Positions 1-2,985 of a stretch of DNA of 64,000 bases are shown here, in pieces (position 1 is the first letter of the stretch; each line of letters opens with the position of its first letter). Below the pieces are notes generated by a model that was not told the origin of the DNA, made no database searches, and saw only the letters and a program-made list of their open reading frames with translations. The position numbers and the translations under genes are program-made. Source of the DNA: Archangium primigenium (GTDB taxonomy: Bacteria > Myxococcota > Myxococcia > Myxococcales > Myxococcaceae); contig NZ_JADWYI010000001.1 of assembly GCF_016904885.1 (NCBI RefSeq), forward strand, positions 3,410,001-3,474,000, written 5' to 3'.

Positions 1-2985
1 CCCACCACCATGAAGCGCATGCGGCCCTGGAGATGGGCGGCGCCCGCCACCGCCAGGAGCTGGGCGCAGGCGTCGAGTACGCCCGGATGGAAGCCCAGGC
101 CCTGGGGCTCCCGCTCCGTGGCGGGCACCCGGCGGAAGCGCGCCACGGCCTCGCCCTCGCGGAAGTGGACCTCGTCCACCCACTTCACGCTCTCGCCCAG
201 CTCGAACGACAGCTCGGCGAGGCGCCGGTAGAAGGTGTCACCGTCCCACCGCGTGCCGCCCTCCCACTCCGAGGGCGGCCGCTGCTCCTCGGGGAGCGCG
301 GGCTCGAGCAGGGCCTGGGCATGGAGCGTCCACTGGGCCCGTTCCCGCTCGAAGCCGTGGAGCAGCAGCCGCGCGCGTCCACCGTCGAGGGGCTCGACCA
401 CGAGCCGCACGTCGCGCTCCTCCTGGGGCTTCACCTGCAAGGCGACGAGGTAGCGCACCTCGCGCAGCACGAAGGAGCGCAGGCCGAGGTGCTGACGCAC
501 GGCCCGGGTGATGAGCTCCTGCCAGTGGCCGATGTGGGCGATGCCATGGTTGTCGGCCAGGTCCGGCAGGCGCGCGTGGCTGAGCCGGTAGGCGAACTCC
601 CGTTCACGGCGTGGCGTGATTTGGGGAGATCCCTCGAAAACGGACATGGAGGGACCCTCGTCCTCCGCCGGGGGGCGGAGCCAGTGCGGCTTGCGCTGGA
701 AGGGGTAGGTGGGCAGCGGACCCTCCGCCAAGCGTGTGCCCTCGGTGAAGGGGCGGCGCCGTGGGGCGAGCCCCTGCGTGTGCAGGAGGGCCACGCAGTC
801 GAGCAGCGTCTTCCAGGGGGCGTGCTCCGTGGTGACGCGGGGCCAGTCGCGGCCCGTGTCCCCCAGGCTCAGCAGCACCCGTTGCTCCGAGCCCTCCAAG
901 CCCGTCAGGGCCCGTGCCCAATCACCGGTCGCGGACTGCGCGCCCGCCCAGGTGTCGGCGCGTGCCGCCAGGCGCGCATCGATGAGCGCCTCGGCCCGCG
1001 TGCGCAGCAGGCGCAACCGGGGAACGCCGAGCCGCTGGGGCTCGGGGGTGAAGGCGCCGCGCAGTCCCAGGTCGCGCAGCAGACAGCCCAGGGCGTCCCG
1101 GAGCGTCAGCGCACCGGCGTGGCAGGCCGCGACGTAGAGCCCCTGGCCATCGGCCAGCAGCGTGTCTGGGGCCAGACCCCAATGGTCCAGCAGGGCCAGC
1201 AGCGCGTACTGGGCTCGGAACGTGGTGAGCGCCCGTGCGTCCAGCGCACGCGTGTTCCCGCCCAGCAGCTCCGTGGCGATGGCACCGCACGCGTCGTAGG
1301 CCGCCGCGAACACGGGCTCCACCGGATGCAGCGCGGCCACGGTGGCGGAGAACTCGCCCTCATGGGGAAGGGCGATCGCGAGGCGCGGGAGCGTGCCTTG
1401 CGGAATGACCCCCCGCCGCAAGCCCTCGGCGTCCCGGCCCTCGCTCAGGGCCAGGAGCGCGGTGGACAGCCCCGTGCCGTCCGTGGCCACCACGCTGGCG
1501 CGGTGTTCGAGGTGCCCACGCGAGCGTGTCGCGGCGGCGCACAGTCCGGGGAGCCGCTGCTCCGGTTCTCCCGCCAACCGCTCCCGCCACTGCAGGGCGA
1601 GGGCGCGCAGCGCGGCTTCGTCCCGCGCCGAGAGCGGCAGCCAGTGCACGGGCCGGGACCGCGCGGACGCGGACGGCGGGGCGGTGGGCGCCTCCCCCAC
1701 GAGGACGTGGACATTGGTGCCGGAGAAGCCGAACGCGCTCACGCCCGCGAGCCGGTCCGGTTCATCCCACGTCAGCGTGTCCCAGGCCAGCCGGGCCCGC
1801 ATGGCCTCCAGGCGGATGCGGGGGTTGAGCTGGCGCAGGTGGGGCTGCCTCGGAATCGTCCGGTGCTGGAGGCAGAGCACGGTCTTGATGAGGCCGGCGA
1901 TGCCCGCGGCGGCCTCCAGGTGGCCCAGGTTGGCCTTCACCGCGCCGACCGTGAAGGCCCGCTCCGCGTCCGGGCGTTGTCCGTACACCGCGCCCAGGCT
2001 GTGCATCTCGATGGGGTCCCCGAGCGGCGTGCCCGTTCCGTGGGCCTCGACGTAGGAGACACGCTGGGGCCGCAGTCCCGCCGACTCCAGCGCCTTGCGC
2101 AGCAGCGCTTGTTGCGCGAGCCCGTTGGGCACCGTCAGCCCGCTGCTCGCGCCGTCGTGGTTGGCCGCCGAGCCGCGCAGCACGGCGAGCACCGGATCTC
2201 CATCCCTCCGGGCATCCGCCAGGCGCTTGAGCACGATCATGCCGCCGCCCTCCGCGCGGCCGTAGCCATCCGCCGAGGCGTCGAAGGTCTTGCAGCGGCC
2301 GTCGGGGGCGAGGGCCCGCAGCCGGCACAGCGAGACGGTCGTGTACGGCGACAGCATCAGGTTGATGCCGCCGGCCAGGGCCACCTCGGACTCCCCCCGA
2401 AGCAGGCTGTCGCACGCGAGGTGCACGGCCATCAGCGACGAGGAGCACGCCGTGTCCACCGTGAGCGCGGGGCCTTGCAGGCCCAGCCGGTGGGCGATCC
2501 GCCCCGAGGCGATGTTGGTCGCCAGTCCCGTGGCCGTGTAGGAGTTGAACTGCTGGGCGTTCCGGGGCAGCAGCGCGTACTCGGCGCCGCCCATGCCCAC
2601 GAACACGCCCACGGGGCTGCCCGCGAGGCTGTCGGGCGCGAGTCCGGCCCGCTCGAGCGCTTCCCAGGACATCTCGAGCAGCAGGCGCTGCTGAGGGTCC
2701 ATGTCCGCGGCCTCGCGCGGGGAGATGCCGAACAGCCGCGCGTCGAAGAGCGCGGGGGACTCGCGCAGGAAGCCACCCTGGCGCACGTACACCTTGCCGG
2801 GAGCGTCCGGGTCCGCGTCGAAGAGGGCCGCGTTGTCCCAGCGCTCTCCGGGGACGTCGACGATGGCATCACCTCCCGCGAGCAGGAAGCGCCAGAAGGC
2901 CTCGGGACTGTCGCAGCCTCCGGGGAACCGGCACGCCATGCCGACGATGGCGATGGGCTCACGGCCCGCAGGCGCGGCCACGGGC
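1..2985 (-). other. PKS module 4: cis-AT-like KS4, decayed AT, DH-like domain (partial)
   Basis: KS4 (about residues 3992-4412, C4163) has the SSGLTVPNG and SAFGFSGTNVHV segments typical of cis-AT KS, unlike KS1-3. About 300 residues follow that align with an AT from the N-terminal helix through FRAQYALLALLDHWG, but GHSxGE reads ADGQGL, so catalytic Ser is Gly4596. After a PTYPF linker a double-hotdog domain begins near residue 4760. Its motif is DNHGIAHIGHWQE, with the DH Gly and Pro missing but DACAQ (Asp/Gln) kept. The frame leaves the window here. Confidence 0.8.

Follow-up and report, generated by a model that had tools for sequence, protein, structure and literature searches.

Assembly lines that combine two modes of acyltransferase (AT) supply are known: in kirromycin biosynthesis the trans-AT polyketide synthase (PKS) KirAI-AV, which has discrete ATs, continues into the cis-AT PKS KirAVI (PMC5818483). 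Loss of an AT nucleophile is known as well: in the last module (M12) of the irumamycin line the Ser of the GHS motif is replaced by Gly, and stuttering is proposed (PMC11672594). Trans-AT modules keep a flanking subdomain that runs from the ketosynthase (KS) to LPTYPFx5W (PMC11260071), and AT-docking regions C-terminal to the KS have been proposed for leinamycin (mentioned in PMC6164871). The ingredients (trans/cis hybrid lines, Ser-to-Gly ATs, and AT-neighboring linkers) are thus already known singly. Here we describe a multimodular, antibiotic-type PKS of Archangium primigenium, most of which lies in a window of 64,000 nucleotides (contig NZ_JADWYI010000001.1, positions 3,410,001 to 3,474,000), and in which a cis-AT-type KS at the end of a trans-AT line is followed by an AT that is dead and trimmed.

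The locus resembles the kirromycin system in that a trans-AT line with discrete AT supply runs into a cis-AT PKS, but KirAVI is described as the cis-AT PKS of its line, whereas the AT of the module captured here is dead and trimmed. It shares with irumamycin M12 a terminal-module AT with a Ser-to-Gly replacement; that line, however, is all-cis and the available portion of its account mentions no subdomain loss, whereas here a trans-AT is available and the cis-type KS stands in a trans line. As in the flanking subdomains and the leinamycin regions, AT-neighboring sequence is left between KS and LPTYPF, but trans-AT modules retain the linker alone (159-166 residues after the first three KSs here), whereas the fourth KS (KS4) is followed by the linker together with the core of the large AT subdomain (334 residues). 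Finally, the fold and sequence of that subdomain are those of the catalytic ATs of family PF00698 (CurL, DEBS, and salinomycin), from which the remnant differs in having neither the nucleophile Ser nor the small subdomain with its catalytic His. A search of the open literature, in which absence proves little, returned no account of a trimmed, conserved dead AT in a trans-AT line, nor of a recurrent trimmed form.

The domain order, as determined with Pfam and a KS hidden Markov model (HMM), is DH-ACP-KS1-DH-KR-ACP-ACP-KS2-ACP-KS3-ACP-KR-KS4-psiAT-DH-ACP-TE, with the last ACP and the TE lying outside the window. A careful maximum-likelihood tree was built of 59 KS domains, its cis-AT rows coming from this genome and Streptomyces and its trans-AT references from Bacillus, Pseudoalteromonas (pTML1), Methylosinus, and Sandaracinus. 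In this tree a cis-AT clade of 27 rows (support 100/99) included KS4 with its orthologues, and KS1-3 sat with the trans-AT references on the opposite side of the branch, as did the C-terminal KS of the neighboring PKS. A quick tree agreed, KS4 grouping with the cis-AT rows and KS1-3 lying apart from them. Constraining KS4 and all trans-AT rows to one side in that tree was uninformative, since a basal position of KS4 in the cis clade satisfies it too and the unconstrained search had overlooked a better tree; the careful tree was used instead. No elongating module contains an active integrated AT and a discrete AT is present in the cluster, as befits a trans-AT line, and KS1-3 belong to trans-AT clades, but KS4 does not; conversely, its module has the KS of a cis-AT module but not the active AT. 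Because KS1-3 fall in the trans-AT clade but KS4 in the cis-AT clade, the assembly line is a trans/cis hybrid.

Downstream of KS4, at about residues 4415-4752 (window 1691-679), lies the remnant of an AT, in agreement with a sequence-only reading that had seen an AT-like shape in some 300 residues here. In a phmmer search whose query also contained the KS tail and linker, the region matched CurL and further KS-AT structures (best E 1.6e-26), and the alignment took in the active-site segment. With hhalign, a profile of three orthologues matched an intact KS-AT linker, AT, and post-AT linker over 343 columns and the full length of the remnant (E 1e-37), well beyond the KS linker. An HMM built from this genome's own ATs and searched against the whole open reading frame (ORF) matched the core around the active site (E 1.3e-7) and gave no match after KS1, KS2, or KS3. 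The Pfam AT model did not report the remnant. The distance from the KS to the YPF motif is 334 residues after KS4 versus 159, 159, and 166 after KS1-3, and the corresponding linker-AT-linker segment of intact cis modules spans about 450 residues.

The AT carries two lesions. As had been noticed from the sequence, the GHSxGE position reads ADGQGL (4594-4599), so that the nucleophile Ser is replaced by Gly4596. In addition, essentially a single block of about 110 residues is missing, starting after the active-site helix and reaching the strand that precedes the TVTG..YW region; it includes the catalytic His and corresponds to what we take, from FabD-type ATs, to be the small ferredoxin-like subdomain. 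The remnant was modeled with AlphaFold (pLDDT 72, pTM 0.74). The model, which is biased toward the AT fold because two of the four sequences in its input alignment were intact ATs, superimposed on a solved AT with a VIA-align Z of 28.4 over 316 residues at 3.7 A. Gly4596 (model residue 182) lies at the turn between a strand (177-180) and a helix that begins at 182. These results confirm that the region is an AT remnant, dead and trimmed.

Orthologues were sought in 96 genomes of the family and 195 of the phylum. Two relatives contain full orthologues of the PKS (G074, 61%; G078, 55%), and a third (G080) has one that is cut by a contig end. Both full orthologues end in the same KS4-dead AT-DH-ACP-TE order with the AT likewise trimmed, the nucleophile motif reading ADGGSV and ADGASR, respectively, and no frameshift being present; an orthologous AT-ER protein with an intact GHSLGE is encoded near the PKS end in these two clusters, as in that of A. 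primigenium. That two relatives share the dead-AT end and the AT-ER shows that the loss is old rather than artefactual. By NG86, which is rough at a GC3 of about 0.9, omega in the dead-AT core, whose 132 codons contain no more than one gap, was 0.53-0.57 (bootstrap 0.33-0.92), as compared with 0.13-0.20 for KS4 (the most constrained portion of the terminal module), 0.32-0.46 for the DH, 0.34-0.38 for the TE, and 0.22-0.25 for the trans-AT. The remnant is therefore under relaxed but real constraint. The additional loss of the small subdomain, the age of the loss and its presence in relatives, and the recurrence described below all go beyond what had been proposed from the sequence.

The AT-ER (748 residues, L022:8962-11208) is encoded near the PKS end, some 4-6 kb outside the window; it is divergent and the sole AT close to the PKS. 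Between the two genes lie genes for a flavin adenine dinucleotide (FAD) monooxygenase and a 268-residue protein with no Pfam match (L022:11210-13629), and a multimodular nonribosomal peptide synthetase and a P450 are encoded farther out on the same side (L021:3-11124). The interpretation that we favor, with a probability of about 0.78, is that a terminal cis-AT module was joined to a trans-AT line, that its AT decayed, and that the core was kept as a spacer or scaffold while KS4 elongates with malonyl supplied by the AT-ER. A module of the type KS-AT-DH-ACP-TE would have been joined to the end of the line, where its AT, redundant beside the discrete AT-ER, would have lost first its nucleophile and later the small subdomain that bears the catalytic His, the remaining alpha/beta core standing between KS4 and the DH as a noncatalytic spacer or scaffold. 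Because the AT-ER is the only nearby AT and the C-H-H triad is kept in KS4 and its orthologues, we infer that the AT-ER would load malonyl onto the terminal-module ACP and that KS4 most likely still elongates. Of the corresponding proposal in the sequence-only reading, the joining of a cis module to a trans line is upheld by the KS tree, the dead AT, and the conserved AT-ER nearby, and the replacement of the AT in trans, which turns on loading of the ACP, is probable.

Trimmed ATs of this kind are not confined to the KS4 module. The A. primigenium genome contains four: the one after KS4, GDGVGE (5.18 Mb), GHGVGE (4.10 Mb, adjoining an intact AT), and APGVGA (4.12 Mb); a further module has lost its AT altogether. 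Further examples came from other genomes as matches that span a dead-AT query from end to end within about 340 residues, and every one has Gly. To escape query bias, the ATs of two of these genomes (G036 and G069) were inventoried by Pfam AT family before the nucleophile was read. All 60 full-length AT loci read there had Ser (mostly AGC), and all nine ATs without the small subdomain had Gly (GQGPGE, GKGVGE, GYGAGE, and GHGVGV in G036; GHGVGE, GDGFGE, GIGHGR, GEGTGE, and GEGLGA in G069); the last two of G036 and the last of G069 were read among the matches to the dead-AT query, the other six in the inventory. The 16 full-length ATs examined in A. primigenium likewise had Ser. Over the three genomes, then, Gly occupies the nucleophile position in 13 of 13 trimmed ATs versus 1 of 77 full-length ATs read, the other 76 having Ser. 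The exception (L192, GLGEGE), a full-length AT that already carries Gly, is apparently an intermediate and supports the view that loss of the Ser came first. The nucleophile at an alpha/beta-hydrolase elbow has a strained backbone conformation, and Gly would therefore be expected there if the fold were kept once catalysis was lost. In a dead AT of a Desulfobacterales line the position is occupied by Asn.

Mapped on a 124-row KS tree, the pseudo-AT state required 14 changes, a number that is rough because the tree was quick and has many long branches, and eight of them were forced by strongly supported branches. A single clade of the KSs associated with dead ATs in A. primigenium was rejected by a test on KS sequences (p 9e-5); under an approximately unbiased test the AT sequences, which have long branches, were compatible with a single dead-AT clade (p 0.20). 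The trimmed pseudo-AT is thus a recurrent class with at least eight losses by KS phylogeny. The KS triad is kept in most pseudo-AT modules, and pseudo-ATs occur also in lines with intact cis-ATs.

Three other lines illustrate the arrangements in which such domains occur. One cis-AT line of A. primigenium (L098/L099, G000:C1:4101614-4120573) contains a KS-psiAT-intact AT tandem, an AT-deleted module in which the linker leads to LPTYPF, and a KS-psiAT stub, and is a graded series of AT loss. A single ORF of G069 (L188, C1:6391500-6398500) has the order intact AT-pseudo-AT-KS-pseudo-AT, with a dead AT behind a live one. The Desulfobacterales line, a hybrid from a metagenome-assembled genome (L090:8492-12922), consists of a trans-type KS, a cis KS-AT module, and a KS with a dead trimmed AT (GWNGGE) fused to another AT.

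The serious rival is that KS4 does not elongate, its module, for want of an AT, acting as a pass-through or processing station while an upstream module iterates. The stuttering proposed for irumamycin M12, whose AT also has Gly for Ser (PMC11672594), is a direct precedent, and three other pseudo-AT modules have damaged KS triads (L113, CNH; L187, CHQ; L099, CHY). We nevertheless consider this unlikely: C-H-H is retained in KS4 and its orthologues, KS4 has the lowest omega of the module, and a trans-AT is already available to the line. Less probable still is that the remnant serves specifically to dock the AT-ER at the terminal module, an idea that would suit both the constraint on the remnant and the regions proposed for leinamycin. 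KS1-3, which have no such remnant, presumably depend on this AT-ER as well, pseudo-ATs are found in lines having intact cis-ATs, and an interaction with the AT-ER is purely hypothetical. That the region is an ordinary trans-AT flanking linker resembling an AT by chance would fit the silence of the Pfam AT model, but its length, the AT-core HMM match, the full-length profile alignment, the fold match, and the position of KS4 in the cis clade already contradict this, and we give it almost no weight.

Several points nevertheless temper our preference for a captured module loaded in trans. The support is computational throughout (sequence, trees, and model), the fold prediction leans toward an AT by construction, and the omega estimates are approximate. 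In-frame retention of the remnant is by itself no proof of function, because DH-ACP-TE lie downstream. Nor does the KS tree single out the closest cis relative of KS4, so that no donor is named.

Features of the PKS ORF, in window coordinates
Feature	Position	Strand	Basis or remark
Multimodular PKS ORF	3..14933, continues past left window edge	-	whole protein 5429 aa, TE at C-terminus
KS1, trans-AT type	12366..13658	-	KS HMM and KS tree
KS2, trans-AT type	7542..8858	-	KS HMM and KS tree
KS3, trans-AT type	5334..6632	-	KS HMM and KS tree
KS4, cis-AT type, catalytic C-H-H intact	1689..2963	-	KS HMM, KS tree, triad reading
KS-AT linker (flanking subdomain)	1383..1691	-	Pfam CurL-like_PKS_C and KAsynt_C_assoc; alignment
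Dead AT, remaining alpha/beta core, residues 4518-4640	1014..1382	-	AT HMM, hhalign, model
Gly4596 (codon GGC) at nucleophile position, within ADGQGL	1146..1148	-	
Excision scar: presumed small subdomain and catalytic His (~110 residues) missing	1026..1076	-	alignments
AT C-terminal remnant and post-AT linker, ending LPTYPFQRKPHW	681..1025	-	alignments
DH-like double hotdog of terminal module, runs beyond window	3..656	-	PS-DH

Two further features of the ORF deserve mention. Module 3 (window ~2960-6630) has the order KS3-ACP-KR, with KS4 immediately after the KR. The terminal DH-like domain (L089:4649-5665) has DNHGIAHIGH at the HxxxGxxxxP site and retains HPGVLDAC, the C-terminal Asp motif. 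Because the altered HxxxGxxxxP motif is conserved among the orthologues, the domain is perhaps not an ordinary dehydratase.

The terminal module appears to have been caught midway in a conversion from cis to trans loading, a transition that is normally inferred rather than seen. With the Pfam AT model, trimmed ATs in the genomes examined were overlooked or matched in part only, and automated product prediction may therefore mis-assign pseudo-AT modules. We would give even odds to a broader view in which pseudo-ATs are a recurrent, maintained element of myxobacterial PKSs that arises repeatedly when modules switch from cis to trans loading. On this view cis-AT lines would continually undergo conversion one module at a time, and the core would be needed for the geometry of KS, linker, and downstream domains. 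The recurrent lesion pattern (Gly at the nucleophile, the small subdomain gone, the KS triad usually kept) suggests which part of the AT is indispensable to the module, a point that bears directly on PKS engineering.
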